From: an uncultured bacterium
GTDB lineage: Bacteria > Cyanobacteriota > Vampirovibrionia > Gastranaerophilales > Gastranaerophilaceae
Direction of reading: 5' to 3'
Assembly: GCA_902763805.1 (NCBI GenBank)
Contig: CACWTN010000002.1
Coordinates: 1 to 64,000 of the forward strand
DNA: 64,000 bases
Positions 7,301-38,308 of this stretch are shown piece after piece. The translations under genes and the position numbers were made by a program. How positions within the stretch are numbered: the stretch's first letter is position 1; each line of letters begins with the position of its first letter. Below the pieces are notes generated by a model that worked only from the letters and a program-made list of their open reading frames with translations, had not been told where the DNA came from and ran no database searches.

Positions 7301-10300
7301 ACCGCTGTTATTAATAGTCAAACCTTTTTTATCATCTTGAGTTTTTATACTGTCTATTCCGGCTTGCATAGTAGCATTCATATTCGCACCTGAACTGGTA
7401 GTTCCTATACCCAATCCTGTTGCAGATGTAGTATTGGTGCTTGTAGATGCAACCAGCTTATCCGAAGATGCAACTAAATTTAATCCTTTAACATTTATAT
7501 CACCGTTAACATCTTTTATAATTGCTCTGGTTATAGATGTTTCATCAGCTTTGCTATTTATAACGGCAATCTTTGCAGCTGCGACAACATCTGTTTGCAA
7601 AGATGTTGCGACATCAGCATTTCCTGTTGCGTGAAGATTCAAATAATCCGCTGTTATATTTGTATCCCCTGTAACTATTGCATTTGTAACATTTTTATCA
7701 ATAACTTTTGATATAGAAACGTTAACATCTATACCTCCTACAGTTACTGCTTCACTTGAAATATCTGCTTTATTGGAAGATTTTGCATTAATATTTACAT
7801 TTTTAGCATTAACATCAGCATTTGTAATTTTTGCATTGGTTAAAGCTTTGTTATCATAAATACCTACTGCACCACCTATTGATGCTGCACCAGCAGAGTA
7901 TTGCTTATTTGTCATTTTTACATTATTGACAGATTCGGCATTAATATTAATATTTCCATCTGCTTTAACATTTCCACCTGTAATTTCCGCATCTGTACTA
8001 TTAGAAAAATCAACCAGTTTGACACCGACACCTGCTGCAAGACCGCCTAAGGTAACACTGGTATTCTCAAAAGATAAAGTATCTGTTAATTTACCGTCTT
8101 TATCCACACCTTTTATAACAGTTTTAGAATTAAGAGTAATGTCTTCTGTTGTTTCTAAATTACCATTAACTCTTGCTATAGCACCTGTTTTATCTTTTGT
8201 AGATGTTGTTGCATTAAACTTGCCATCACCTTTTGGATTCGTATCATTTTTGTCATCCGATGTAGCTTTATTATATTGCTCCTGTACCTTACTTAATGCA
8301 TTGTTGATAGAACTATCGTTTCTGTCTTTATCGTCAATAGCTTCTCTTTTACCTAATTGAATAACGGAAATATCACCGGCAATTGCAATACCACCACCGG
8401 CAAAACCTGAAATTGTATTTTTAAGAGCATAAACTATATTTGAAGCCAAGTTAGCTTGTTTTGCTTTTACTTTATTATCAGCATCTGTTAATATTTCTGC
8501 ACTTACTATTTCATTGTAATTGCTTACATTAATATTTGCACCTCCGGCACCTAAACCCATTGCAGCAAAACCCATATCAGAAGTTGCAACAATCCTGTCA
8601 TTTGCAGTTACGTTTATTTCATTATCAATATTTATGTCTTTTGCGTTTCCGTTTTCATCTTTGTAATTAGCTAAAACATAGGCTCTTGTTTCGGATTCTA
8701 TTTGATTAGCAATAGCATCAACTAAAAGAGTTCCGCCTACCGCTGCTGCTGAAACACCATAGTTATTTCCTTCAAATAATTTATCTCCATGTGCTTCAAC
8801 AATCAAGTTTGCTGCTTTTTGAATATCAGTTTTTTCTACGTATGATAATGTTGTATTTTCATACATATTATAAATTAGGTTTGTAGAAGATGCACCGCCA
8901 AGACCTGCTAAACCAACACTACCTGTAAGGTTATGTATACGATCTTGGAAGATGTTACCGTTTTTGTCTTTATTTGCAGTTAATGTAATATTACCGGCAT
9001 TTGTAATAACGGTATCTTCAATATATGACTTAACTGTTGAATCAATTGAATTAAGAATAATATTTACACTTAATGCTCCGCCAATTCCTGTAATTGATGC
9101 TGACATCAATGCATTTTCGCTATCAACAACAGATGATGAGGATATATTTATATTATTGTTTGTATTTATATTCATCTCTTTTAAACTTGCATCTACGGTA
9201 TTTTCATAATCATTTCTGATTAAGAAACCATTCATGCTTCCGCCGATAGCTGCACCTGCAACACCTGCTATCGCAGAGAAATTGTCGACGTAATCATTAG
9301 CATTAATATATATATCGCCGTCATTTACATTAGAATTGATTACCTGAGCGATGGTTGTTCCTGTATATGTATTTATAAGAGGGATAAAGTTTCCTGCGAA
9401 ACCTGTACCTGCAACAGAAGCACCAATTAATATATTATTTATTTCAATAGCATGTTCTGCGTTAACATTTGTTCCCCCGTGAATTTCAGAACCGTTTTTA
9501 ACGTAAGCATATACTTTATCGTTAATTTTATTTACATCGACACTTGCACCAACAGCAGCGCCAACGCCTGCTCCTTGTCCTGATATTACAACTTGATTTA
9601 CATCCATAACGGATTTTGAATCAACATTAACTCCGCCTTTTGTAACTTTTGTATTATTTACTTCTGCTGTTATTGTATCTTCAAGAACATTTATTATACC
9701 TGAAACATTAATTGCAACATTACCTGCACCTGCAACAGCTGCCATAGCATCAAAATTTGTAAAATCTTGTTTTGCTTGAACATTTAAACCTTTTTCTGCA
9801 GAAATAGTTGAGTTTTTAACTTCAGAGGTAATATGTCCTTCCATATCATTTGATATAACAGATGCGTTTACTGCAACAGTACCTGATGCTCCGACACTGA
9901 ATACTCCGACTTTTGGAGCAAGATTCTTTATGTCATTTTCTGTTATACCGTCAGATTTTGTATTTGTAGTTCCATCAGACTCAGTTTTTCCAGACTTTTT
10001 ATATGCAGAAGTATCTTTGAACCAGCTTCTAAATGGGTTTACACTTGTTTTTTCTTGTCTGTTAAAGCCTCTATCTGCAATAACATCAACTTTGCCTTGT
10101 TCACTTGTTACGTCTGAATTATATACTCCTGATTTTGCGGTAGAATCAACAAAATTTAATAATCCTGTTGCACCGATTGCAGCCGTTCCTGCACCGCCTA
10201 TATTAACGAGAAGTGCTGAAAATTCGTCATCAGCTTGAGATTTTACGATTACATCATTATCAGCTTTAATTGTCGCACCGCTCTTGCCTTCCGTGCCTAT

Positions 10301-22410: not shown

Positions 22411-25400
22411 TTAATTATAAAGACTTTCCAAATAGTCTCGAATTCTTTCTTGTCGAGCATATTCTTTTTTACTACTAATTAAGTCATTAATGTAACATCT
22501 GTGTTGAAGATACTTTGAACCTTTTAATATAGATTTTATACTTTCCAATGATTTAATCCTCTGTTCAATTATAGGAACAAAGCTTCCGTTCCAAGATGAG
22601 TATGAAGCTGGTTCTAAAGAGATTGCTTTAAATATATTTATATCACTATTTAATTTTAGTAAATCTTGAATGTATTTAATTTTTAAATTTTCATATCGAT
22701 ATACAATAATATCAAAAATAACTTGAAGTTTTTCTTTATTATATGCATTTTTTTGAATAAAATCAAAAATGTATTTTTGTTGGTTTTTAATTATTAAATC
22801 ACCATTTTCACTTGGTTTTGGGAATATTTTCGCCGATAAAAATTCTAAATAATATGCTCGTTTTTTTAATATCATATTATCAATGGCAATATCAATTAAT
22901 TCAGCATAATTTTTAGTTTTCCAGATATATTCAAAAAGCCCATGATATGATACATTTTCATATTTATCTTCACCTAGCTTTTCTGTAATTTTAGTCCAAA
23001 AATTTACATCCCTATTGAAAATTTCAACAAATAAGCACCCTGAATGTTCTCCATTTATTTTCAAAGACATTAAATACAAATCTTCTAGAATTTCTATATT
23101 TTTATCAAAAATATTAACTAATTTTTTAGCATCTTCTTCAAAAAAGTATGTTTTTAGATAATCTGATACTATGTGTTTATTGTTGTGCATTTTTGTACAA
23201 ATCATTTGAGATATTGTTCTGACAATACTTGAATCATAATTACTATATTTTTCAAGAGAAAATACTGAGATGATTTTTGGATTATCACATCTTAAAGCCT
23301 CCTCCATATATTTGGTCATTTGATTACATACATTTTCATCTATATCAGCTTCAGGATATTCTTCATAAAAGGCTTTTAGCCACAAATACTTTTCATCAAT
23401 TCTACATTTAGTTATTAGATTTTTTGTTTTTATTGTACCAACAAATTTAAATAAATTCCTGATAATTTTGTTTGGATAATAAATTGTTTGTATTTTCTTT
23501 TTAAAATATAAATTTATTACATACAAATATATTTTCGGCTCTTTTTCAAGGAGCTCCAATACGTCCATCAATCCGCTATAAATATGCTCCGAGGTACAAA
23601 AAGAACTCTTTTCGTATTTTTTGAATACGTTGATAAAATTAACCCAATCTTGTTCTTTGAAGCGATTTATTTGTTTAAATAATCTATTCCTTCTTTTTTC
23701 TTCAGATTTTTTCCAATGTTCTTTCAGCTTATCTCTTGTAGATAAATTAATTAAAAGCATACATTCTGCATTTTCTTTATATCTCAGCAATTCTTTATTG
23801 GGTTTTACACTTAGATAATCATATATTTTTGTAAGGTTATATAATATTACTGCTAATTTGAAATCAATTATTTTTTTTCTTGATACAAAAAGTTTTGAAA
23901 AGCAGTCCATATCAAATTGAATAAACTTTGTTCGGTACTTATTATTTGCCCCAAATAGATGATAATTATATATGAATTCTTCAACATAGGGTTTGTATAA
24001 TTTCATTTGATAAAGTTTATGTAAAATCTTCCACATATATTTTCTTAATTTATAAGCATTTTTTGTTGGTGCCACATATATTTGCTGCATTATAAAACTG
24101 CGATTGTCTAGACCATTTTTTGTTATATGATCTTCAATTTTAAAATAACTTTTAAATAACGATATTAACAAAAGAGTTTCATTTGTTTTTTTACCATATT
24201 CTGATAATTGCCAAATCTTATCAATGATAAAATACTCATTTTTATAATCATCACAATATGAATCTTCGTCATAACTATACATTTCTGATAATGCTATATA
24301 AATATCGTGAATGTACTCTGCATTTTTATTAAAAATATCTATTAAGAGTTCAATAGCATCTTCACAGTATTCTGTTCTTTTGAATTGTGATAAAATTTCT
24401 ATCTCAAAAGATGTTATATTTTTATTGTTAGAAGCTTCATAAATATCATAATCTTTTATGTTATATGGTAATGATTCTATACTATTAATTCTATTTTGTA
24501 TATATAACAATGTTCTATCTATATTTAATTTTGAAAAATGTTTGACAAAATAATACTCTTCATCTGAATTACAATTCTGCCAAGTTTTATTTATCTCTGT
24601 TTTTATATAATTTAAATTTTCTTCATCGAAAAATATTCTTAAGATTATATTTAGGGCATTAACAATTTGCGTAGAATATTTTGGGAATGTCAATGATAAT
24701 AAATTTTCTAATGATATATATTTTTGTTCAATCAGAACATAATATATTACAAAATCTTTAAGATTTTGGTCGCTTATTTTTAATATTTCATCTTCATATT
24801 TATCAATAATTTCTAATGAATATAAGTAGTCACACACTTTTGTAAAGGAGCTTGCATTAATGTTAAAACAATTTAATAATATTTGCACAATTTCATTTAA
24901 TTTATAATTTGTAGTTCCTAAAAATCCTATAATGAACAGAATACAGTATGTATCTATTTGTGAATCTAAACCACTCAAAATATCGCCATAATATGATTTA
25001 AAAAGATCTTTTGTATTCATTATGGCATTATAGCCCTTATTTATCGCTTTTTGTGCTGCCATAACAGCTAAGCGTATATTCCCTTGGGATATTTTACAAA
25101 TTTGTTCGATATATTTTGGATTGTTGATATTATAATTTTTTTGTAAAAATTGTTTTATTTGTTCATTAGAAAAATTTTCTATTTTAATTATTGAAGGTTC
25201 TGTATATTTAAAAATGGTACTTAAGATTTTTTCTTTAGCATAGTCACGAACAGTTGCTACTATCTTGATATTAGTTTCTTGTTTTTTTGCCTGAATAAAA
25301 CTTAATATGTATTCAATTTCTCTTATTTCATTTATATCATCTAGAAATAAAATGTAATTTCCTGGTTCATTAAAATATATATTTAAGTCAGATTGAATAA

Positions 25401-26124
25401 AAGCTCCGTTTGACTTAACACAATATTTTTTATATTCATTTTCATCAAATAATTTGCACGTTTCCAGTACTAATTTTGTTTTTCCAACTCCTGGAGCTCC
25501 AATTACAACTGTCACATCAGTTTTTAAAATAGATCCTTTAAGTTCTATTAATTCTTTTTCTCTAAACATAAATGCTGTATCTAGTGGTGATGACATAGAT
25601 TTTTTATTATATATCTCTATAAAATCATCTATTGAAAATATTTGATGACTATCTAAAGGCGTACCTAATTCTTCAAAACAAATAGAAGGGTAATGTTCTA
25701 ATAAATCATGAGACATTGTTCCTAAATCTATTATTTCTAATGAAATTCCTTCAGTTATGTTTTTCAATGATTCTTGTTGTTCAGGAGTTATATTTGTAGA
25801 TGAATATACACAAATAATTTTTTCTATTTTATCTTTTTTCAAATTTAATTTCTTCGGATTTAGCGTTGATTTAATATCTTGTTCTAACTTCCTATAGGTA
25901 TTATTTTTAACAGAACCATACATGATTAAAATATATTTACCATCAGGTGTCTTTACATAGGTGTCAGGAATTCCTATTGTTGTTTTATTTGTTCCATCTT
26001 CTGAACCAAGAGGACAGATATTAGAAAATTTATATTTTTTATATAGATATCTGTCGCAGAGCTTTTGGAACTCCCCGCCACTTAATTCCTTTATTTTTTG
26101 TTGAATAGTGTTAATTTTACTCAT
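22411..26124 (-). CDS. Large STAND-like NTPase with degenerate nuclease-like N-terminus (putative antiviral sensor)
   Basis: This is a 1237-residue protein. The N-terminus (about 1-150) resembles the PD-(D/E)xK restriction-type domain fused to nSTAND NTPases: GGEFQKLCDRYLY, G-T-N-K then P53-D54. However, the strand that normally carries the catalytic Glu reads ILIMYGSVK, so the acidic residue seems lost. The P-loop GAPGVGKT is at 209-216, Walker B YILFLDDINE at 257-266, and an ATVRDY sensor-like motif is near 294. The last 900 residues are alpha-helical repeats without a recognised motif, as expected for a target-sensing region. It follows a small membrane protein by 18 nt. Large STAND NTPases of this build (Avs/nSTAND3 type) commonly sense phage proteins; that role here is inference. 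Confidence 0.75.
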   Translation of the reverse strand: MSKINTIQQKIKELSGGEFQKLCDRYLYKKYKFSNICPLGSEDGTNKTTIGIPDTYVKTPDGKYILIMYGSVKNNTYRKLEQDIKSTLNPKKLNLKKDKIEKIICVYSSTNITPEQQESLKNITEGISLEIIDLGTMSHDLLEHYPSICFEELGTPLDSHQIFSIDDFIEIYNKKSMSSPLDTAFMFREKELIELKGSILKTDVTVVIGAPGVGKTKLVLETCKLFDENEYKKYCVKSNGAFIQSDLNIYFNEPGNYILFLDDINEIREIEYILSFIQAKKQETNIKIVATVRDYAKEKILSTIFKYTEPSIIKIENFSNEQIKQFLQKNYNINNPKYIEQICKISQGNIRLAVMAAQKAINKGYNAIMNTKDLFKSYYGDILSGLDSQIDTYCILFIIGFLGTTNYKLNEIVQILLNCFNINASSFTKVCDYLYSLEIIDKYEDEILKISDQNLKDFVIYYVLIEQKYISLENLLSLTFPKYSTQIVNALNIILRIFFDEENLNYIKTEINKTWQNCNSDEEYYFVKHFSKLNIDRTLLYIQNRINSIESLPYNIKDYDIYEASNNKNITSFEIEILSQFKRTEYCEDAIELLIDIFNKNAEYIHDIYIALSEMYSYDEDSYCDDYKNEYFIIDKIWQLSEYGKKTNETLLLISLFKSYFKIEDHITKNGLDNRSFIMQQIYVAPTKNAYKLRKYMWKILHKLYQMKLYKPYVEEFIYNYHLFGANNKYRTKFIQFDMDCFSKLFVSRKKIIDFKLAVILYNLTKIYDYLSVKPNKELLRYKENAECMLLINLSTRDKLKEHWKKSEEKRRNRLFKQINRFKEQDWVNFINVFKKYEKSSFCTSEHIYSGLMDVLELLEKEPKIYLYVINLYFKKKIQTIYYPNKIIRNLFKFVGTIKTKNLITKCRIDEKYLWLKAFYEEYPEADIDENVCNQMTKYMEEALRCDNPKIISVFSLEKYSNYDSSIVRTISQMICTKMHNNKHIVSDYLKTYFFEEDAKKLVNIFDKNIEILEDLYLMSLKINGEHSGCLFVEIFNRDVNFWTKITEKLGEDKYENVSYHGLFEYIWKTKNYAELIDIAIDNMILKKRAYYLEFLSAKIFPKPSENGDLIIKNQQKYIFDFIQKNAYNKEKLQVIFDIIVYRYENLKIKYIQDLLKLNSDINIFKAISLEPASYSSWNGSFVPIIEQRIKSLESIKSILKGSKYLQHRCYINDLISSKKEYARQERIRDYLESLYN

Positions 26125-26795: not shown

Positions 26796-27791
26796 TTATA
26801 TAAAAAATTTCCAAATATCCTGGTTAAGTTTCGATAATGGACGTTTATTTATATTTTCAGATGTTGTATAATTTCCGGTTATTATACAATCTATAAAGTC
26901 ATCTGTATAAAATATACCATTTTCATCTAGAAATTGTCTTATTGAATTTATATATTCTAGAGAATAGCATTTTTTCTTAATTAAAAGTTCCCGTACAACA
27001 TCTTTATGGTACTGGTAGCGATCTGTAAGTTTGAAAAGATTTAGGTGGGTTTCCGCTTCTGTGGAATTAGCATCTATTGCAATTGAAAAAGCACTTTCCT
27101 GCTTGTATAAATTTTTAATATCCGAAACTTCTAATCTAAAATTTATCATACTGGCAAGACTCTTTGTGTATGGGTGAACAGGCAAGTAATCCTTATTACC
27201 TTTGAGTGATGAATTACATGACGGACAAGAAGGAATCAAATTATAAAATGATAAAGCAAGATAAGGATATATGGATTTCGGATAGTAGTGATCATAATGT
27301 GGTTTTATAGAATATTTCGGTTTGTCATCTTCATCATAGTTTATTGCTGCATAAGTATAGTTTATATTGCAATAAGGACAAGCTTTTATACCAAGAGCTT
27401 CTATTATTTTGTATGAATATTTTTTGTTTTTAATAAAATTATTGTACAATTTTTCAAAGTTTTTAGATATTGTCCTTGCAATTGAAGAATCTCCGGATAA
27501 GCCAGCTTCTGTTATAGTTTTTGCTTGAAGCTTTGCAATAGTAGTTTCTAAATTTTTAGTAATATACTGCAAATTATCATTGTGTTCTTTCATTTTTTTA
27601 ACATCAGCTTTAAGAATTTTGTCAATATTATTTTTCATATAGTTAATGTTAGCCGACAGTTTTTCTGACGGATTATTGTTTTTTACATTCTCCAAAAACT
27701 CTGATATTTTATTATCTATTTTTTCAATACTAATATATTCTAAAAAAATAGCATAAGCTTTATCTATATTTTCTTTTTGAATTTTATGCAT
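26796..27791 (-). CDS. PtuB-like HNH endonuclease (Septu-type)
   Basis: This is a 331-residue protein. It has a helical N-terminus, then an HNH nuclease core with zinc-binding cysteines: C138-P-Y-C141, D167-H168-Y-Y-P-K-S, N184, and C189-P-S-C192-N. This matches the PtuB / retron-associated HNH family. The start overlaps the end of the ATPase gene by 8 nt, so translation is coupled. In Septu systems an ATPase (PtuA) and an HNH nuclease (PtuB) form a complex that degrades phage DNA. No reverse transcriptase is nearby, so it is not a complete retron. A 16-bp perfect palindrome (26758-26773) lies just downstream of the stop. Confidence 0.85.
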   Translation of the reverse strand: MHKIQKENIDKAYAIFLEYISIEKIDNKISEFLENVKNNNPSEKLSANINYMKNNIDKILKADVKKMKEHNDNLQYITKNLETTIAKLQAKTITEAGLSGDSSIARTISKNFEKLYNNFIKNKKYSYKIIEALGIKACPYCNINYTYAAINYDEDDKPKYSIKPHYDHYYPKSIYPYLALSFYNLIPSCPSCNSSLKGNKDYLPVHPYTKSLASMINFRLEVSDIKNLYKQESAFSIAIDANSTEAETHLNLFKLTDRYQYHKDVVRELLIKKKCYSLEYINSIRQFLDENGIFYTDDFIDCIITGNYTTSENINKRPLSKLNQDIWKFFI

Positions 27792-29733
27792 TTAAGTTCC
27801 TTTTATATTGTGCCTCAAGCATTTTTCTTATTAATTCTTCACCAATAATATTTATAGTACAATGAGCTTTTTCTAGATCTTGTTTTAAAGATTTGGAATT
27901 ATTGATAATATTAATGGCTTCTTGGATTTTTATCTCTGCAAATTTACTTATATTATTGTCAATGAAAAAAGAATCATATAATAGTTTATGTATATTAGAT
28001 GCAAATGTTTGATTAAATTTATCACAGCATACAGTTCTATTGTTTTCTTTTTTTAGCAAAATGACATTGGTTCTGGGCATGTCTGAAAGAATGAAAGGAG
28101 AGTGTGTTGTTAAGATAAGATTACAAAAGGTATCAGAGTTTTTAAATATTTCTGTAATATAATAAACCATATTTCTTTGCCATTCCGGATGCCAACTTAA
28201 GTCCATTTCATCAAATATAAATGTTTGTACAGGCTGCTTTGTATTCTCAAATTTATTATATTCTATTATTTGCATGAGAGTTCCAAAAAACATCAACATA
28301 CGCTGTTCTCCGGTACTGAGCTGCTTGAAAGTAAACGTATCCTTTTTGCTTTCTTTATAAAAATTTATATTAAATATTTTTACTAGTAATGATTCCATTC
28401 CATATAGCATTCTTTCCTGTTTACTTAATTTTGAATATTCCATTGAATATTTATTAGTTTTTAACAAAAAATCTTTTTTTACTCTAATAATGGCTTCTTT
28501 GTTATCATCAATTATTTCTAGGCAATTTTCTATTAAAGATTTAATTCCTTTAATATTGTTTTCATAATCAATAACTAAATCTATAAATTGGATTATGCTG
28601 CTAGCTTGATAATTTTTGAAAGTCCATATTGGTGGCGAAATTATGATTTTATATTGTTTAGTAATAACTTCTTTAAGAGAATTATAAAATTTCAATCGTG
28701 AAGAGACATTCCAGTAGTCTATATAATGTTTTTCATACTCGTCTTGTGCATCAACAACAGATGTTAAAAAATCTTCAAGATAAAAGTTGTTTTCTTTTTT
28801 AGTTTTTGCATATTCTTCTGTATTAAGTAAATTTAAAACTTTAAGTAGTACCATTTCAAAACATAATATGGGAAGGTGATTATGAATAAATAGTTCAAGA
28901 CGTTTTTCCAGAAAAATTTCATCTAATTTGTTACACATAAATCTTCTGGTTGTGTAATTTAGTCTGCGTATTAAATTATTAGGATGTGTTAATTTAAGAT
29001 AAGTTTTATATTTAATTAAATCATCATTCATGTGATAAATTGCATCATTTATATTGTATTCTAATCCCATGTATTCAAATTTAAAAAATGGAAAGTTTTT
29101 AAACAGTTCAAAATCATTATTACTTAACAGTTTTTTTATGGCATCAATAGTATCATTTGTATTAAATCTGTCAAAATAAAAATAATTATTTAATTTAAAT
29201 TGCAACCTATTTTTTTGTTCAATATTATCCACAATATATTGCTTATTCTCGCTAAGTCTTAGAAATGTCTGAAATTTAGCTATTTGAGAGTTTTGTTTTC
29301 TAATTCTTTTATCTTTTATCATAGTACATTCAACGTATTTTTTATCAATTTTTAATTCTGTATCAATAATTCCATTTATATATGCAAAAAAATTATTATT
29401 ATAACGAAAGACAAGGCAATATTTCTTGGGCACATCTTTTATATTGCCATATGATTTTTCAGATGTTTTGACATTAGGATTGTGTGCTTGTATGATAGAA
29501 TATATTGTATCAACAAAATTGCTTTTGCCACTACCATTTTTCCCTACAACTGCAATAATATTAATATTTTCACCAAATATATGATTGTAATCCTTGTTTG
29601 TTTTTAAATCTATTTTTAAAATATTTTCTTTTGTTAATACCGGTTTTGCAGCTATTATAAATTTTGGATTTAGCGATGAATCAAAATTTTCAAAGGCTTT
29701 TAACTTATCAACCCACAAATAAACTAATTCCAT
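27784..29733 (-). CDS. PtuA-like AAA/ABC-type ATPase (Septu-type)
   Basis: This protein has about 649 residues from the ATG at 29733. That start sits 8 nt after a strong AGGAGG; a GTG 9 nt earlier is too close to that site. It has a P-loop GKNGSGKS near residue 65, an ABC-signature-like LSTGEQRML at about 482, Walker B FIFDEMDLSWHPEW at about 517, and an H-loop LTTHSPFILSDM. This is the SMC/RecF/OLD-like fold of PtuA. A large helical insertion separates the two ATPase halves. It is translationally coupled to the HNH nuclease. Retron-linked PtuA is the main alternative, but no reverse transcriptase gene is present. Confidence 0.85.
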   Translation of the reverse strand: MELVYLWVDKLKAFENFDSSLNPKFIIAAKPVLTKENILKIDLKTNKDYNHIFGENINIIAVVGKNGSGKSNFVDTIYSIIQAHNPNVKTSEKSYGNIKDVPKKYCLVFRYNNNFFAYINGIIDTELKIDKKYVECTMIKDKRIRKQNSQIAKFQTFLRLSENKQYIVDNIEQKNRLQFKLNNYFYFDRFNTNDTIDAIKKLLSNNDFELFKNFPFFKFEYMGLEYNINDAIYHMNDDLIKYKTYLKLTHPNNLIRRLNYTTRRFMCNKLDEIFLEKRLELFIHNHLPILCFEMVLLKVLNLLNTEEYAKTKKENNFYLEDFLTSVVDAQDEYEKHYIDYWNVSSRLKFYNSLKEVITKQYKIIISPPIWTFKNYQASSIIQFIDLVIDYENNIKGIKSLIENCLEIIDDNKEAIIRVKKDFLLKTNKYSMEYSKLSKQERMLYGMESLLVKIFNINFYKESKKDTFTFKQLSTGEQRMLMFFGTLMQIIEYNKFENTKQPVQTFIFDEMDLSWHPEWQRNMVYYITEIFKNSDTFCNLILTTHSPFILSDMPRTNVILLKKENNRTVCCDKFNQTFASNIHKLLYDSFFIDNNISKFAEIKIQEAINIINNSKSLKQDLEKAHCTINIIGEELIRKMLEAQYKRNLNA

Positions 29734-29804
29734 TACACACACCTCCTAAACTAATGTATCATAAAATAAACTGTGTGTATAATGAAATTTATATTTTGTT
29801 TATT

Positions 29805-30377: not shown

Positions 30378-30409
30378 CTAACAATACACTAACAATCTTT
30401 ATGTATAAT
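30378..30409 (+). promoter_or_regulatory. Pho-box-like direct repeat and -10 of the regulator gene
   Basis: CTAACAA (30378-30384), a 4-nt spacer, CTAACAA (30389-30395), then 8 nt, then TATAAT (30404-30409). The 7+4+7 layout replacing a -35 is the classic PhoB/PhoP promoter plan, and the half-site resembles the TTAACA of Gram-positive PhoP. The -10 ends 6 nt before the ATG at 30416. Confidence 0.75.
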
Positions 30410-30415
30410 AAAAAT

Positions 30416-31102
30416 ATGGATATATTTGGTGCGAAGATTTTAATAGTTGAAGATGAACCTCAGATTAACAGACTTGTTGAATTAGTACTTTTATCTGATG
30501 GGTTTTATAATGTGAAAAAAAACTTTGATGGAGCTGAAGCTCTTGAACTAATTAAATCTGATAAGCCTGACTTGGTTTTGCTAGATGTAATGTTACCTTC
30601 GATTGACGGTTTTTCTTTATGCAAAAAAATTAAAGAAGATGAATACTTAAAAAACATTCAAGTTATTATGCTTACTGCAAAGAAAATGGAAGAAGATGTT
30701 TTAGAGGGATTTGAAAGCGGTGCAATAGATTATATTTCAAAGCCTTTCAGCAACAAAATTCTGCTTGCAAGAGTAAAAGCACATTTGAAAAATATTAACT
30801 TTTCTTCGCACTCTTATCAAAATGTTAAAATTGATGATGTTAAAAAAGTTGTAACGATTGATGATAATGAAATTGAACTTACAAGGTTTGAATATAAGAT
30901 TTTAAAAATATTTATCTCTAATATAGGAACTGTTTTTTCTCGCTCACAGCTACTTTCTTATTTAAGAGGAGATGACGGATTTGATATCTCAGAAAGGGCA
31001 ATTGATGTTCAAATATTAAATTTAAGGAGAAAATTAGGTGAAGTTGGTTCAAACATTGAAACCATAAGAGGTGTCGGATACAAATTAAAGGAGCCGAGTT
31101 AA
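30416..31102 (+). CDS. PhoB/OmpR-family response regulator
   Basis: This protein has 228 residues from the ATG at 30416. I choose this start because the -10 hexamer occupies 30404-30409, so the ATG at 30401 lies within the promoter. The receiver domain has D57 (LLDVMLP) as phospho-acceptor, an acidic DE pair (VEDE), T-A and K (SKPF). The C-terminal winged helix of the OmpR type (about 125-225) ends RAIDVQILNLRRKL and IRGVGYKL. It is directly followed, with no gap, by its histidine kinase. The Pho-box-like repeat in its own promoter indicates autoregulation, and the Na/Pi cotransporter gene 6 kb downstream fits a phosphate-starvation role. PhoB is inferred from context; the sequence alone says OmpR family. 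Confidence 0.85.
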   Translation: MDIFGAKILIVEDEPQINRLVELVLLSDGFYNVKKNFDGAEALELIKSDKPDLVLLDVMLPSIDGFSLCKKIKEDEYLKNIQVIMLTAKKMEEDVLEGFESGAIDYISKPFSNKILLARVKAHLKNINFSSHSYQNVKIDDVKKVVTIDDNEIELTRFEYKILKIFISNIGTVFSRSQLLSYLRGDDGFDISERAIDVQILNLRRKLGEVGSNIETIRGVGYKLKEPS

Positions 31103-32404
31103 ATGAAAAAACGTGATTTATTTTGGCTAAAAAGAGTTTTAATAATACTATTTGTAGGTCTTATTTTTGTTTGGATATCTTTGCACAACATTACTCAATT
31201 CAACCAATCGTATATTCAAGAAGAAAAACATGAAATGGAAGTTTTCAAAAAGCAAATAGAATGGGTTGCAACTCCTCTTTTAAGAAAATCCGATATTAAA
31301 ACATTAGAAAAATATGCTCTTGATTTTTGGGATGATAAAGAATTTGCTTTCAAAATATTTGATAGTAATAAGAATTTGCTGGTTTCTTCCGATAATGAAA
31401 TAAGTACAGAGCAATATTTACAAAAACAGTATGAAATTAATATTGACGGAAAACCTTACTATATTGAAGTAGATTTATCTCAAGAGTCCGTAATGAATGC
31501 AATTGTTAAGGCTCAAAATAAAATTATGATTTTGTTCGGGTTAGGCATTCTTTGTCTGATTTTAGGTCTGATTCAAATATTTTATTCAGTAAGAAAATCT
31601 TTTAATACCCTAGAAGATAGTGTTATTCAGATTGCAAGAGGGGATTTTGATGTAAGTATTGAACTCCCGAAAAACGGACTGTTAAATGAACTTTCTCTTG
31701 CAATAATGAGAATGACTAACAGGCTTAAAAATCAAATTACAAGACTAACACAGCTTGAAGAATATCGAAAAGATTTTGTTTCAAACATGTCGCATGAAAT
31801 TAAAACTCCAATTACTGCAATAAATTCTGCTGTTGAATTAATAGAGGGAAATGGTGAAACAACCGATATACAAAAAGAGTGTTTTGATATAATAAAGTCT
31901 CAAACGTATTCTATTAATAGGCTAGTTGGTGATATTTTGACTCTTTCTGAAATTGATCTGGAAAAGACAAATGAACACAAAAATTTTAAAGTATTTAATT
32001 TAAATAGTGCCATTAATCAAGCTATATCTGTTCAACCAAAAGCAATTGTTTTCAGTAATAGCGAAAACATAGACGTTATAGGAAATGAAGAACTTGTAAT
32101 AACAATGATTTCAAATCTTTTATCGAATGCTATAAAGTATTCAGGCTCTGACAAAATAGAGGTTAATTTAACTAATGATAAGAATATAATAATTGAAGTT
32201 AAAGATTACGGGGTGGGAATTCCTGCAGAGCATTTGCCTAGAATTTTTGAAAGATTTTATCGGGTTGATAAAACCAGAAGCCGTCAAAGCGGCGGAACAG
32301 GTTTAGGGCTTGCGATAGTAAAACACATTGCAGAACTTCACAATTGGAAAATTGAAGTTGAAAGCAAAGTCGGAGTTGGTACAAGTTTTAGAATTATTAT
32401 TTAA
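31103..32404 (+). CDS. PhoR-like sensor histidine kinase
   Basis: This is a 433-residue protein. TM1 is at about 8-27, with an extracytoplasmic region of about 105 residues and TM2 at about 134-158. These are followed by HAMP, a HisKA domain with phospho-His231 in SHEIKTP, and an HATPase_c domain with the N box (SNLLSNAIKYS), G1 (DYGVGIP), F box (FERFYRVD) and G2 (GGTGLGLAIV). All kinase motifs are intact. The ATG follows the regulator's stop directly (TAA-ATG). It is co-transcribed with the response regulator from the Pho-box-like promoter. The short periplasmic domain has no recognised sensor fold, as in PhoR-type kinases that take their signal from the Pst/PhoU complex. Confidence 0.88.
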   Translation: MKKRDLFWLKRVLIILFVGLIFVWISLHNITQFNQSYIQEEKHEMEVFKKQIEWVATPLLRKSDIKTLEKYALDFWDDKEFAFKIFDSNKNLLVSSDNEISTEQYLQKQYEINIDGKPYYIEVDLSQESVMNAIVKAQNKIMILFGLGILCLILGLIQIFYSVRKSFNTLEDSVIQIARGDFDVSIELPKNGLLNELSLAIMRMTNRLKNQITRLTQLEEYRKDFVSNMSHEIKTPITAINSAVELIEGNGETTDIQKECFDIIKSQTYSINRLVGDILTLSEIDLEKTNEHKNFKVFNLNSAINQAISVQPKAIVFSNSENIDVIGNEELVITMISNLLSNAIKYSGSDKIEVNLTNDKNIIIEVKDYGVGIPAEHLPRIFERFYRVDKTRSRQSGGTGLGLAIVKHIAELHNWKIEVESKVGVGTSFRIII

Positions 32405-32405
32405 G

Positions 32406-32437
32406 CTAACAAATAACTAACATTATTTTTTTATAAT
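32406..32437 (+). promoter_or_regulatory. Pho-box-like promoter of the GH13 gene
   Basis: CTAACAA (32406-32412), 4 nt, CTAACAT (32417-32423), 8 nt, TATAAT (32432-32437). The geometry is identical to that in front of the response-regulator gene. The expected start site is about 15 nt before the ATG at 32459. Confidence 0.75.
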
Positions 32438-32458
32438 TATCCTGATTGGAAAATAATT

Positions 32459-34585
32459 ATGAAAAAATTATATATAATACTAGCAGTAATTTTATTGCTA
32501 TTTTGGGGAAATATAAATACTTTTGCTGAAGATTTAACCTCTGAAACTAATCAGGAAGTTGTTCAGGAAGAAAACGAGTTTTTTGTTGATTCTAAAATAC
32601 AAAAGGAAATAAAAACTTCAATACAAAATGTTTATGGGAAAGAAAGCGTCGAAGAAGTTTACAATAATTTGATAGAACACGCAAAAACAGCGATAAAAAA
32701 TCGTCCTCAAAAATTAAAAGAACAAGATATTAAAAGGACTTCGGACTGGTTCAAGGATGAAATAATCTACATGTTTTATGTGGATCAGTTCGGGGTAATT
32801 CAAAAAGATAAAAATAGCACATTTGAAGATACGACTCTAATGCTTAATTATCTTCAAGAGCTTGGTGTAACGACTCTTTACCTGCTTCCTTTTGTTGACA
32901 GTCCGATGGAGGATTCAGGGTTTGATGTTAAAAACCCGCAAGATGTAAGACGCGAGCTTGGCGGGATGGCGCAATTTGAAAACTTTATAAAATCTGCTAA
33001 AGAAAAAGGTTTTAAAATAAAAGCCGATTTGGTTTTAAATCATTTATCAGATAAGCATGAATGGTTTAAAAACTTGCAAAGAGGGGATTTAGAGTATTTA
33101 AACTATTTTATTTGGAGTAATAAAAAACCTGAATATAAAAAATACGTTGATGAAAAATTAGGAACGGTTGTTGAATACCAAGAGGATGATGGAACTATAT
33201 CAAAACGAAGATTGATTTTCCCGGAAAACACAGAAGATAATTGGCGAGAAGTAGGGGTAAATATAACAAATGAAGATGGAAAAAGCGAAACAAAAACATA
33301 TTATTTATACCATACCTTTTACCCCTTTCAGCTTGATATAAATTGGGAAAACCCTGAAATTTTATACTATACCCTTGATACAATAAGCACTTGGGCTAAT
33401 TTAGGAGTTGATATTTTCAGAATGGATGCAATTCCTTATTTATCGAAAGAAAAAGGCACAAATGCGGAAAATCAACCTAAAACTCACGCAATCGTAAATA
33501 TTTTGAGTAATTATATCCAACTGACAGCACCATCATCTGTTATACAGGTTGAAGCGTGTCAAGAACCAAAAGACATTGCTCCATATTTTGGGAAAAATCA
33601 TACCGTAAATATAAAAATTAATAACAGCGAAAAAGAACTGTATAGAACTTCGGAAGCTCAAATTGCTTACAATTTCCCATATATGAACGCTATTTGGGCA
33701 ACATTAATATCAGAAGATAAAAAATATTTTACTGATATTTATAAGAAAATGCCATCTGTTCCAAAAAATACAGCGTGGGGAGTTTTCTTAAGAGTACATG
33801 ACGAACTCACTTTAGAAATGGTAAATCCTGAAGTAAGAGAGCTTATTTTTCAGGATTTAGAGCCAAAGGGTGCCGAATTTAGAAAAGGATTTGGAGTATC
33901 CGGAAGACTAGCTAATTTTTTAGACAAAAATCCAAACAGAATAGAAATGGCTTTTTCTATCTTATTTTCAATTCCCGGAATTCCGATAATATACTATGGT
34001 GATGAAATCGGAATAGAAAACGATTACCAAAATGCTGAGAAACAAGCTAAAAAAAGAAGGGATAAATCTATGGGGGAAAAATCGGCTTTTGCAAAACTTC
34101 TTTCAGCCTTTGATTCTCGTGATATAAACAGAGGTTCTGTTCCGCAAAAACTTTTTTATGGCTCTCAATATGGGTGGTATGCATTTAACTCAAAAGTCTA
34201 TAACAAAGTTAAACACTTAATAAGTCTTAGAAAATCACTTCCTGTTATGTCCGATGGCAGTTTTGAAATATTAAAAACAACATCAAAAGAAAACTTTAGC
34301 TACATTAGAAAGAATAAAACACAAGAGATTCTTGTCATAAACAACCTTTCAAAAGACAAAATTGTAGCGGAAATTACTCTTCCTACCACAACAATTCTAA
34401 AAAATAATCGAAAAATTACAAGACTTAAAAACCTGATAAACGGGGATAATATCAGAGTGAATGTTTCACTTCAAAATAATACAATGCACCTAAGGGTAGC
34501 ACCATATCAAGTTCTTTGGCTTGATTTATCAGGGGTAAACAAAGGGGACGAAGCACTTGAAGAAAACGGAGCAAGTGATGGATAA
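32459..34585 (+). CDS. Secreted GH13 enzyme, trehalose-synthase/maltose-glucosyltransferase-like
   Basis: This is a 708-residue protein. A signal peptide (residues 1 to about 23) is followed by a helical spacer of about 60 residues, then a complete GH13 (beta/alpha)8 domain. The catalytic triad is visible: nucleophile D323 (DIFRMDAIPYL), acid/base E365 (IQVEACQ) and D448 (FLRVHDEL). The phrases ADLVLNHLSDKHEWF, HDELTLEM and the YYGDEIG end-strand match trehalose synthase (TreS, GH13_16), which interconverts maltose and trehalose. The C-terminal 110 residues form a beta domain. TreS is normally cytoplasmic, so export is odd. The enzyme may instead act on outside alpha-glucans. It is the first gene of an operon with an acyltransferase and is under the Pho-box-like promoter. 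Confidence 0.85.
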   Translation: MKKLYIILAVILLLFWGNINTFAEDLTSETNQEVVQEENEFFVDSKIQKEIKTSIQNVYGKESVEEVYNNLIEHAKTAIKNRPQKLKEQDIKRTSDWFKDEIIYMFYVDQFGVIQKDKNSTFEDTTLMLNYLQELGVTTLYLLPFVDSPMEDSGFDVKNPQDVRRELGGMAQFENFIKSAKEKGFKIKADLVLNHLSDKHEWFKNLQRGDLEYLNYFIWSNKKPEYKKYVDEKLGTVVEYQEDDGTISKRRLIFPENTEDNWREVGVNITNEDGKSETKTYYLYHTFYPFQLDINWENPEILYYTLDTISTWANLGVDIFRMDAIPYLSKEKGTNAENQPKTHAIVNILSNYIQLTAPSSVIQVEACQEPKDIAPYFGKNHTVNIKINNSEKELYRTSEAQIAYNFPYMNAIWATLISEDKKYFTDIYKKMPSVPKNTAWGVFLRVHDELTLEMVNPEVRELIFQDLEPKGAEFRKGFGVSGRLANFLDKNPNRIEMAFSILFSIPGIPIIYYGDEIGIENDYQNAEKQAKKRRDKSMGEKSAFAKLLSAFDSRDINRGSVPQKLFYGSQYGWYAFNSKVYNKVKHLISLRKSLPVMSDGSFEILKTTSKENFSYIRKNKTQEILVINNLSKDKIVAEITLPTTTILKNNRKITRLKNLINGDNIRVNVSLQNNTMHLRVAPYQVLWLDLSGVNKGDEALEENGASDG

Positions 34586-35675
34586 TAAGAAAAAAACATT
34601 TCTTAATTATATAAACGTATTCAGAGGTCTTGCGATTCTTTTAATTATTGCAGGACACACTATGCAATTTGGAGAAAGTTCAACTCTTATTCATAAAATC
34701 TGCTGTGAAATTATCTGTGGCGGAACGACTCTTTTTATATTTATTTCCGGTTTTTTATTTCAGCATCTTTCATCAAAATTTGAATACAAAACTTATCTAA
34801 CTAAAAAATGGACAAATGTTGTAATGCCGTATTTTTTGACTTCAATTATCGGCATTCTGTTTTGTTTTATTTACCCCCAAACTTACGGAAACTCTTTTTA
34901 TGGCTTAAATCCTATACTGCAAATACCAATGTTTCTTACTACAGGAAGAATTCATAATACACCTGCTTGGTTTATTCCGATGATAATTTTGTTCTTTTTC
35001 TGTTCGTGGTTTTTATTAAAATTGGAGCAAAAAGGCTGGTTGTACAAATTATTACCGCTGATGTTTATAATTACTCTTGTTTGCCCTAGAGTAGACGTAG
35101 ACTATAATTCAATAATGAATTTATCTTATACAAAAAAATATTTAGCGTGTTTAGGATACGTTTTTAACGGATTTATTCATTTTTTTTCTTTGTATGTTTT
35201 TGGAATGTTTTGTTCTAAACATAAAGAGGTTATTGACAATTTTTACAACAAAAGACTACTGCTTTGGATTTTAATGATTATTCTTGCAGGTGTAAATGTA
35301 TATTTATCATATAAGGGGATTTATTCAAGTTTTACAATCTCTAAAACAATCCTTACAATGCTTATTTTAGGGTACCTAAAAAACTATGATAATTGGATTA
35401 TGGTAAAACCATTATTAAATAAAACTTTGGACATTATAGCAAAATACAGCTTCGGACTGTTTTTTGTTCATTGGTACTGGTTTTTTGTTTATAATCAAAT
35501 TTTTAACCTAGAAAAAGTTATTCCTCTAAATGATAATTATATTGCAGTTTTTGGATTTGTTATTATAAGATTTTTAGCAGTAACAATTCTTTCTATGCTT
35601 TCTCTTTATTTGGGTAAAAAGATAATTATATTAATAAACAAAAGTGCAAATACAAGAATGTTTTTGGGAGTGTAA
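34578..35675 (+). CDS. Acyltransferase 3 family membrane protein
   Basis: This protein has about 365 residues from the ATG at 34578, preceded by GGAG. A start 21 nt earlier would lie deeper in the upstream gene. It has about ten TM helices. The conserved N-terminal motif FRGLAILLIIAGHTM carries the family's essential Arg and His, and FIFISGFLF follows. These enzymes move acetyl, succinyl or other acyl groups across the membrane onto sugars or lipids. The 8-nt overlap with the GH13 gene shows translational coupling. A joint role in modifying a glycan under phosphate limitation is inference. Confidence 0.85.
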   Translation: MDNKKKTFLNYINVFRGLAILLIIAGHTMQFGESSTLIHKICCEIICGGTTLFIFISGFLFQHLSSKFEYKTYLTKKWTNVVMPYFLTSIIGILFCFIYPQTYGNSFYGLNPILQIPMFLTTGRIHNTPAWFIPMIILFFFCSWFLLKLEQKGWLYKLLPLMFIITLVCPRVDVDYNSIMNLSYTKKYLACLGYVFNGFIHFFSLYVFGMFCSKHKEVIDNFYNKRLLLWILMIILAGVNVYLSYKGIYSSFTISKTILTMLILGYLKNYDNWIMVKPLLNKTLDIIAKYSFGLFFVHWYWFFVYNQIFNLEKVIPLNDNYIAVFGFVIIRFLAVTILSMLSLYLGKKIIILINKSANTRMFLGV

Positions 35676-35730
35676 AAATATTCTTATTCACGCTTACCCC
35701 TCCACGTTTATCCCTTTTCATTTACCCTCC

Positions 35731-35762
35731 CTAACAATATACTAACAATTCTAATTTATACT
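35731..35762 (+). promoter_or_regulatory. Third Pho-box-like promoter
   Basis: CTAACAA (35731-35737), 4 nt, CTAACAA (35742-35748), 8 nt, TATACT (35757-35762). The spacing is the same as at 30378 and 32406. It would drive the small membrane protein and, by read-through, the Na/Pi cotransporter. Confidence 0.75.
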
Positions 35763-35846: not shown

Positions 35847-36458
35847 ATGCTAGCAAAAATAACCCCAATTAACTTTAAATCTAAAGAAACGACTAAGCCA
35901 AGCATTAAGTCAATAATCGGTGCTGTCGGAGGAACAGCAATACCTTTAGCAATAATAATGAAACAAAGAAAAATTAAAAATCCGCTTAAAATGGAATATG
36001 GCTTGCAAGATATGTTAGTACTTTCAGCAGCTTCTGTTGGGGGAGGAGTTGCAGCAGGGATGATTGGAGAAGATAAACAAACAAGAAAAAGTCAATTAAA
36101 AGAAGGTGTTTTTCAATTTTTAAATGCGTCAATTCCCACTTGGATAATAGGTGGAGTGCTTAAACTACCTGAGTCCAGTCATAAGTTTAATAATGCACCA
36201 ACAAAAATATTTTCTGTTATTGGCGGGCTTGTTGTAGGTATGTTTGGTGCAGCACATGTTTCAAATCTTATTTTTGACCCTAAAGACAAAGAACCTGATA
36301 GAAAATTGACCTTTAAAGACTGTATTGTAAACGCTGATGATGTTTTAGGAGCTTTGGTATTAGCAAAATTTCCGCTTATAGAGAAATTACATTTGGATAA
36401 ATTATTACCTGCAATATATGCATATTGTGGGATAAGAGCAGGGAATGCGAAGGGGTAG
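35847..36458 (+). CDS. Small membrane protein with N-terminal INFKS motif
   Basis: This is a 203-residue protein with AAAGGA 9 nt before the ATG. It has glycine-rich hydrophobic segments at about 23-38, 55-72, 93-106 and 121-138, and no recognised family. Its N-terminus, ITPINFKSKE, resembles the xFKG motif of two other unassigned proteins in the window (45706-46308 and 61714-63660). It is driven by the third Pho-box-like promoter and lies 80 nt upstream of the Na/Pi cotransporter, so it is a candidate phosphate-starvation membrane protein. Its function is unknown. Confidence 0.7.
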   Translation: MLAKITPINFKSKETTKPSIKSIIGAVGGTAIPLAIIMKQRKIKNPLKMEYGLQDMLVLSAASVGGGVAAGMIGEDKQTRKSQLKEGVFQFLNASIPTWIIGGVLKLPESSHKFNNAPTKIFSVIGGLVVGMFGAAHVSNLIFDPKDKEPDRKLTFKDCIVNADDVLGALVLAKFPLIEKLHLDKLLPAIYAYCGIRAGNAKG

Positions 36459-36538: not shown

Positions 36539-38308
36539 ATGATGGATATTTTTTCAATATTTACGCTAATAGGAGGACTTGCATTTTTCCTTTTTGGAAT
36601 TTCTTTGATGTCCTCAGGATTAGAAAAAATTGCAGGGGGCAAATTAGAACAACTTTTAAAGAAAATGACCTCTAATCCCATTAAAAGTTTTGCACTCGGT
36701 GCGTTTATAACAGCTGTTATCCAATCATCTTCTGCTGTTACCGTCATGTTAGTCGGACTTGTTAATTCCGGAATTATGAACTTATCCCAAACTGTAACTG
36801 TTATAATGGGGGCTAATGTGGGAACAACAATTACCGCTTGGCTTTTGAGCTTAACAGCTATTCAAGAAAGTGCAGGCTGGTTCTTCAAGCTCTTAAAACC
36901 TGAATCTTTTTCACCCATTCTTGCGTTTGTTGGAATTTGTATGATTATGATATCAAAGAAAAACAGTAGAAAAAATGCAGGTTCTGTTTTAATGGGATTT
37001 GCGATTTTAATGTACGGTATGGAACTTATGTCAGGCGCAATGGCACCATTAGCAGACGTTCCGCAATTTAAAAATATGATGACTGCTTTTTCTAATCCGA
37101 TTTTAGGTTTAATAGCCGGTATCGTTATTACAATGATTATTCAAAGTTCATCGGCTTCAGTTGGTATTTTACAAGCATTATCCTTAAGCGGAAGTGTAAC
37201 TTGGGGAGCTGCAATACCTATTATTTTAGGACAAAACATTGGAACATGCATTTCAGCAATTTTAGCAAGTATAGGGGTAAACACTAATGCAAAAAGAGTT
37301 GCGGGAGTACATATTATATTTAATATTTTAGGTGTTGGTATTTATTTACCGTTCTTATTGTTTATTCAAACTTTTTTTAATCTAAAATTCTTCAATACTA
37401 ATATTAATCCGTTTGGAATAGCAGTCTTTCACACGATATTTAATATTTCAATAGCTTTTATTTTACTTCCTTTTGCTAAAATTATTGAAAGACTTGCGGT
37501 TAAATATATTCCTGAAAGTCAAGTAAAAACAGATAAAATAGTTTTTCTTGACGAAAGACTACTGTTAAATCCATCATTTGCTATATCAGAAGCTTTTAGA
37601 AAGACTCTAAATATGGCAAAACTTGTTGAACATAACCTCAAATATTCAACAAAAATGTTAAAGAATTTTCACCAAAAAAAAGCTGAACAAATTAGAGAAA
37701 ATGAGGTACAAATTGATACTTATGAAGATAAACTTGATTCTTTCCTCTTAAAACTTTCAGGGAAAGAACTTGCAGATGAAGATAATGAAAAAATATCACA
37801 AATGCTCCTTACTATCGGGGATTATGAAAGAATTGGCGACCACGCTTCTAATATTCTTAAAATTGCAGAAAAGTTAAATGATATGGACAAAAATTTATCT
37901 GAGGAAGCAATTATTGAGTTAAAAACAATAGTTAACGCTGTTTTAGAAATATATTTAATTGCACTAAATTCTTATGCAGAAAATGATTTACAGCTTGCTT
38001 ATAAAGTTGAGCCATTAGAAGCCGTAATTAAAAAAGGAGTTCGCAGAGCAAAAAACAATCATATCCAAAGACTTAAGGAAGGGAAATGTACTCCGGAAGT
38101 CAGTTTTTTATTCTCGGATTTATTGAATGAATTAAGACGTACAGCTGCTCACGCAGAAAATATTGCAATGAGTGTAATTCAGCTCTACGACAGAAGTTTT
38201 GATAAACACGAATATAACCATAGAAATAAGGAAGATGATTTAGAATTCAATATGCGATATCAGGATTATAAATCAAGATACCGAATTTCTAAGAAAAATA
38301 TTATCTAG
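36539..38308 (+). CDS. Na/Pi cotransporter family protein with PhoU-like C-terminal domain
   Basis: This is a 589-residue protein. It has two inverted PNaS repeats, each with the QSSS signature (AVIQSSSAVTVML at about 60-72 and MIIQSSSASVGIL at about 200-212), paired with GANVGTTITAWL and GQNIGTCISAIL, across about nine TM helices. From about 340 to 565 the protein is a cytoplasmic PhoU-like helical bundle (LLTIGDYERIGDHASNI). The family imports phosphate with sodium, and the PhoU part is thought to gate or sense. AAGGAAG precedes the ATG. It is the strongest reason for reading the nearby two-component system as PhoB/PhoR. A terminator follows at 38405. Confidence 0.9.
   Translation: MMDIFSIFTLIGGLAFFLFGISLMSSGLEKIAGGKLEQLLKKMTSNPIKSFALGAFITAVIQSSSAVTVMLVGLVNSGIMNLSQTVTVIMGANVGTTITAWLLSLTAIQESAGWFFKLLKPESFSPILAFVGICMIMISKKNSRKNAGSVLMGFAILMYGMELMSGAMAPLADVPQFKNMMTAFSNPILGLIAGIVITMIIQSSSASVGILQALSLSGSVTWGAAIPIILGQNIGTCISAILASIGVNTNAKRVAGVHIIFNILGVGIYLPFLLFIQTFFNLKFFNTNINPFGIAVFHTIFNISIAFILLPFAKIIERLAVKYIPESQVKTDKIVFLDERLLLNPSFAISEAFRKTLNMAKLVEHNLKYSTKMLKNFHQKKAEQIRENEVQIDTYEDKLDSFLLKLSGKELADEDNEKISQMLLTIGDYERIGDHASNILKIAEKLNDMDKNLSEEAIIELKTIVNAVLEIYLIALNSYAENDLQLAYKVEPLEAVIKKGVRRAKNNHIQRLKEGKCTPEVSFLFSDLLNELRRTAAHAENIAMSVIQLYDRSFDKHEYNHRNKEDDLEFNMRYQDYKSRYRISKKNII

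Follow-up and report, generated by a model that had tools for sequence, protein, structure and literature searches.

What kind of regulon is served by three near-identical direct-repeat promoters in the genome of an uncultured member of the Gastranaerophilaceae (Cyanobacteriota; Vampirovibrionia)? They lie within 5.4 kb of each other in the first 64,000 nucleotides of contig CACWTN010000002.1 (assembly GCA_902763805.1), the stretch that we analysed as a whole and call the window, and they precede a two-component system, a GH13/acyltransferase gene pair, and a pair coding for a small membrane protein and a sodium/phosphate cotransporter fused to a PhoU domain (Na/Pi-PhoU). An initial annotation made from the sequence alone had taken them for a Pho-type regulon. 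Sequence analysis and comparative genomics bear out the promoters and the families of their targets, together with a geometry that is both fixed and conserved; judged by these means, the promoter plan is real and kept across the family. In relatives, the boxed genes belong mainly to families that modify lipid A and the glycans of the envelope. The locus probably encodes a dedicated, autoregulated two-component system of PhoB type that remodels the envelope much as PmrAB does, with Na/Pi-PhoU as an accessory.

Three promoters of one plan

All three sites of the pattern CTAACAA-N4-CTAACA(A/T) were recovered as first described, each separated from its -10 element by a gap of exactly 8 nt, and the genes assigned to them also agreed (Table 1). 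Simulating 100 Mb with a first-order Markov model at the composition of the window gave 0.14 exact boxes per Mb over both strands and not one with a -10 at 8 nt; this predicts about 0.009 boxes for the window, against the three observed. The motif is not scattered at random over the genome either, since a scan of all 1.96 Mb returned three exact boxes, all in the window, and no copy of a reversed control pattern. Allowing one mismatch yielded background only in the rest of the genome (8 real matches versus 10 of the reversed control), and with two mismatches the window itself shows no enrichment, so that only the exact box and a full promoter model are informative.

This model is built from sequence only, covers 38 positions, and was trained on 39 sites taken from this genome and its relatives. 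The three sites of the locus score 27.2-29.3 bits and the next best genomic site 14.5 bits (E 0.11); as the three belong to the training set, their high scores are partly so by construction, and it is the gap to the remaining genome that is informative. No fourth strong site, which might have stood before an alkaline phosphatase gene (phoA, phoX or phoD), was found in the genome-wide scan with the model, and the weak matches in this genome (E 0.1 to 10) are not separable from background. From this gap, the circuit in this genome would consist of these three promoters and no others.

The 12-mer taken by itself marks such promoters poorly across species: 77 relatives hold 22 exact boxes in total, no more than the roughly 31 of the reversed control, hence the need for the 38-nt model. 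A motif-first search with it through 383 genomes of the order returned 43 that carry strong sites (E up to 0.002) and that belong to 16 genera of a single family. We retrieved and annotated 40 stretches around strong sites of relatives, where the regulator/kinase pair lies at most 6 kb from 42 of the 56 sites scoring at least 19. On contigs left out of the training, the same target families follow 27 of 32 sites, as compared with 20% of all genes in those loci. On such contigs we also picked relatives' sites by the box alone, and the distance to the best TATAAT-like hexamer proved identical in 21 of 35; because this way of picking ignores the -10, the result tests the fixed geometry independently.

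Concerning the regulator's own promoter, the start codon is likely the ATG at 30416, because the start of the longest open reading frame (30401) lies 5' of the -10 and overlaps it. As this ATG comes so soon after the -10, the message of the regulator is probably leaderless. The arrangement of box, -10 and start is common to most boxed orthologs. In 11 of these, with the window sequence left out, mean majority identity is 0.89 in the 17-nt box versus 0.47 in the 40 nt upstream; the 11 were selected for having the box, and the contrast therefore speaks for a sharply bounded conserved element and not for the frequency of the box. A scan of genome contigs gave about 26 close orthologs of the regulator; many carry the label Candidatus Gastranaerophilales, and most derive from gut metagenomes of ruminant or other origin. 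A literature search found no work on such a regulator in Gastranaerophilales.

Table 1. Promoter elements and genes of the locus, in window coordinates
Feature	Position	Strand	Description	Promoter model
Box 1	30378..30395	+	CTAACAA-TACA-CTAACAA, upstream of regulator	27.2 bits, E 1.1e-5
-10 of promoter 1	30404..30409	+	TATAAT, 6 nt 5' of regulator start codon	
Response regulator, OmpR/PhoB family	30416..31102	+	Response_reg and Trans_reg_C	
Sensor histidine kinase	31103..32404	+	HisKA and HATPase_c; two membrane helices and a periplasmic alpha/beta sensor region in the predicted model	
Box 2	32406..32423	+	CTAACAA-ATAA-CTAACAT, upstream of GH13	
-10 of promoter 2	32432..32437	+	TATAAT	
Trehalose-synthase-like GH13	32459..34585	+	Pfam Alpha-amylase; best PDB match 5x7u (trehalose synthase), E 4e-82	
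Acyltransferase family 3 membrane protein (OafA type)	34578..35675	+	Pfam Acyl_transf_3, E 7e-25	
Box 3	35731..35748	+	CTAACAA-TATA-CTAACAA, upstream of membrane protein and Na/Pi pair	
-10 of promoter 3	35757..35762	+	TATACT	
Small multi-helix membrane protein	35847..36458	+	No family assignment; recurrent regulon member	
Na/Pi cotransporter fused to PhoU domain	36539..38308	+	Pfam Na_Pi_cotrans and PhoU; NCBIfam TIGR00704 above cut-off	

Target genes in this genome and in relatives

A counterpart of box 2 stands before GH13 genes in seven relatives (L022, L025, L032, L033, L036, L221, L243), and one of box 3 before the corresponding orthologs in nine (L012, L016, L026, L031, L033, L050, L219, L223, L235). 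Boxed genes of relatives code for ArnT-like proteins of the PMT family, ArnC-like glycosyltransferases of family GT2, GT9 proteins, a phosphoesterase, the GH13/acyltransferase pair, the membrane protein, Na/Pi-PhoU and the regulator itself. The only PDB match of the boxed PMT proteins is ArnT (5ezm, E 9e-29), and in NCBIfam they match nothing but the lipid IV(A) Ara4N transferase (ArnT); the Und-P-Ara4FN transferase (ArnC) is among the top two NCBIfam matches of the boxed GT2 proteins, and the boxed GT9 proteins are nearest to heptosyltransferases of lipopolysaccharide (LPS). The boxed metallophosphoesterase looks secreted and has the box in several genera, and one LPG-synthase-TM flippase-like protein is also boxed.

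Downstream of the ArnC-like GT2 gene lies a YdjC-family (NaxD-like) deacetylase, and YdjC genes together with small flippase-like genes of GtrA or EamA type share clusters with boxed genes. The combination of GT2, YdjC and ArnT-like proteins is the layout expected for the addition of an amino sugar to lipid A, and it presumably matches the FlmF2-NaxD-FlmK pathway of Francisella. Genes for LPS and lipid A have been inferred for Melainabacteria (PMC3787301).

In the genome studied here, the start of the acyltransferase gene overlaps the end of the GH13 gene, whose product falls below the cut-off of the TreS N-terminal model and carries an N-terminal hydrophobic segment that, judged by eye, resembles a signal peptide. 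The small membrane protein has no match in Pfam or NCBIfam; it is predicted to be all-helical, a fold search returned poor helical matches only, none of them confident, and about 50 columns are invariant in 6 orthologs. Members of its family are found repeatedly under the box, whether or not Na/Pi-PhoU accompanies them. PhoU is found in this genome only as a domain on two Na/Pi transporters, of which one is box-driven and the other (contig C5, L181 3783-5564) has no visible box upstream.

The ArnT-like gene of this genome (L258, corresponding to C6:44000-60000, at 7378-9021 on the minus strand) forms an operon with a WaaA/KdtA-like gene, and the promoter of this operon has TTCACA-N5-CTCACA ahead of a TATACA-like element. 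We considered this repeat as a sister box that might mark a second regulon and dropped it, as the genome has only one further copy of it, within the coding sequence of lpxA. Extra partial LpxA-like genes occur near the circuit in relatives (L031 8102-8554, L033 11211-11645, L218 4004-4456), some with a box upstream on the same strand; they are possibly decayed duplicates.

Elsewhere in the window, two overlapping genes on the minus strand (26796-29742) match the candidate anti-phage pair PDC-M62B/PDC-M62A (E 1.7e-61 and 3.6e-52) and bear a weaker likeness to Septu PtuB/PtuA. The adjoining gene, also on the minus strand (22411-26124), codes for a protein of 1237 amino acids that has no Pfam match and a marginal PADLOC match to mad8 (E 3.6e-4).

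Phosphate limitation or envelope control

The initial annotation had recognised the known promoter plan of PhoB/PhoP with a half-site not known to be catalogued for this lineage. The geometry is indeed that of PhoB/PhoR in E. coli and PhoP/PhoR in B. subtilis, where a 7+4+7 direct repeat lies near the -10. However, it is not specific to Pho, as the PmrA box likewise consists of direct repeats of 6 bp that stand 5 bp apart, and is found before pmrC and naxD (PMC10927774; PMC9431647). The half-site CTAACA does look lineage-specific and differs both from CTGTCAT in E. coli Pho promoters and from YTTAAK or TTTAAG in PmrA boxes, but it is close to other TAAC boxes. In the sister lineage Cyanobacteria, SphS/SphR shares direct repeats at 11-bp pitch and the TAAC core, with boxes CTTAACCT that usually form tandems of three ahead of pst and phoA (PMC1906773).

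The same division runs through the claim of a Pho-type regulon. What stands is the PhoB-type plan of a direct repeat at 11-bp pitch by the -10, the autoregulation of a two-component system with a PhoB-like regulator and a PhoR/PnpS-like kinase core, and one phosphate-related target, Na/Pi-PhoU. What does not stand is the usual content of such a regulon: there are only three promoters, no PstB above cut-off was found in this genome, where PhoU occurs only in fused form, no high-affinity phosphate genes were found, and the second Na/Pi-PhoU gene is unboxed. The predicted link to pst was not borne out, as PstB above cut-off is found in 0 of 287 sampled genomes of the family, this one included; control genomes have it, as do certain further families within the order and the class, and the Pst operons retrieved from other families show no box.

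The two proteins themselves are PhoB- and PhoR-like with reservations. The best NCBIfam match of the regulator is PhoB, at 198.7 bits and below the cut-off of 296.2, and it scores 113.4 bits with the PmrA model, below the cut-off of 330. The only domains recognised in the kinase were HisKA and HATPase_c; a PAS domain was not among them, and the alignments with the best PhoR and PnpS models are confined to about residues 210-433. The periplasmic sensor region is about 25 residues shorter in this kinase and in that of L028 than in most orthologs.

These data leave some room for a reduced Pho system, a possible though rather unlikely reading, in which the pair would sense phosphate limitation in a family that has neither Pst nor free PhoU, with Na/Pi-PhoU standing in for both, the phosphoesterase freeing phosphate, and sugars replacing phosphate-bearing parts of the envelope. 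The best NCBIfam matches of the pair (PhoB and PnpS/PhoR) fit such a system, although both proteins stay below the equivalog cut-offs and the kinase is missing the PAS domain that a PhoR should have. Na/Pi-PhoU is boxed, and in L220, a relative, directly so and not through the membrane protein; yet its second copy in the present genome has no visible box, and many regulons of relatives contain no phosphate transporter. Likewise, phosphoesterase genes are boxed in several genera, but the enzyme is nearest to models of cyclic-nucleotide phosphodiesterases and not to alkaline phosphatases, and most boxed genes have no known role in phosphate metabolism. Pho control and LPS modification are not mutually exclusive, since E. 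coli PhoB/R also controls the LPS modification genes waaH and eptC (PMC6358824).

A joint circuit is unlikely: a PhoB-like system in a family devoid of Pst might have been rewired for phosphate and lipid A together, Na/Pi-PhoU importing phosphate and gating the kinase, and the phosphorylated regulator directing the capping of lipid A phosphates with sugars through the CTAACA box. We consider it very improbable that the locus is a local cassette for extracellular carbohydrate, in which the GH13 protein and the acyltransferase would process a glycan and the kinase would sense the products; the trehalose-synthase-like GH13, with its apparent signal peptide and its box in several relatives, suits this idea, but many relatives keep box and regulator with no GH13 nearby and glycosyltransferases in its place. 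A chance likeness among promoters without a common regulator, to which an AT-rich genome and the unenriched two-mismatch pattern might lend themselves, is hardly credible for boxes expected so rarely, whose sole three genomic copies sit at this locus and which are kept across genera.

The predominance of envelope-modifying targets across the family makes a PmrAB-like role the most likely. Several observations weigh against it. The regulator is nearer to PhoB than to PmrA in sequence, and the kinase core is nearest to PnpS and PhoR. The boxed genes of this genome are not the ArnT set, its ArnT-like gene lying elsewhere (C6:51389-53021) and having no CTAACA box, and the boxed secreted-looking phosphoesterase and Na/Pi-PhoU would also fit phosphate scavenging. 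Moreover, 14 of the 56 sites have no regulator inside 6 kb in the retrieved stretch, and about half of the regulator orthologs, mainly distant ones, are without a clear box at their own promoter; in some distant orthologs it lies instead between the kinase and a target or before a divergent target.

A proposed circuit for envelope remodelling

With PmrAB (BasRS) of Gammaproteobacteria, including the control of naxD in Acinetobacter, the system shares an OmpR-family regulator, a 6-bp direct repeat with a 5-bp gap, autoregulation, and a small set of lipid A modifying enzymes of the ArnT, NaxD and ArnC types that are boxed in relatives and not in this genome. It differs from PmrAB in its half-site, in a regulator and a kinase that are PhoB/PnpS-like by sequence, and in targets that include GH13, acyltransferase and Na/Pi-PhoU. 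The pair therefore looks PhoB/PhoR-like by descent and PmrAB-like by output.

From the linkage of gene and box we infer that the box is a binding site of this regulator. The kinase would sense a periplasmic cue, presumably of envelope stress, and phosphorylate its partner, which would bind CTAACA-N5-CTAACA head-to-tail over a weak -35 region and recruit sigma-70 polymerase to the -10 located 8 nt downstream. Such presumed activation would boost the operon of the regulator itself along with very few target genes nearby. In the present genome the outputs would be the GH13/acyltransferase pair and the pair of membrane protein and Na/Pi-PhoU, and across the family, if the putative substrates of the enzymes are right, surface glycans and lipid A would be remodelled under envelope stress in a PmrAB-like manner.

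These results provide a testable cis-regulatory code, made of a box, a candidate regulator and a short list of targets, for a large and little-studied gut lineage beside Cyanobacteria, in which a PhoB-like regulator is apparently employed in a PmrAB-like job. They tie an uncharacterised family of membrane proteins to envelope remodelling, and suggest a route by which these bacteria may change their outer surface in animal guts.

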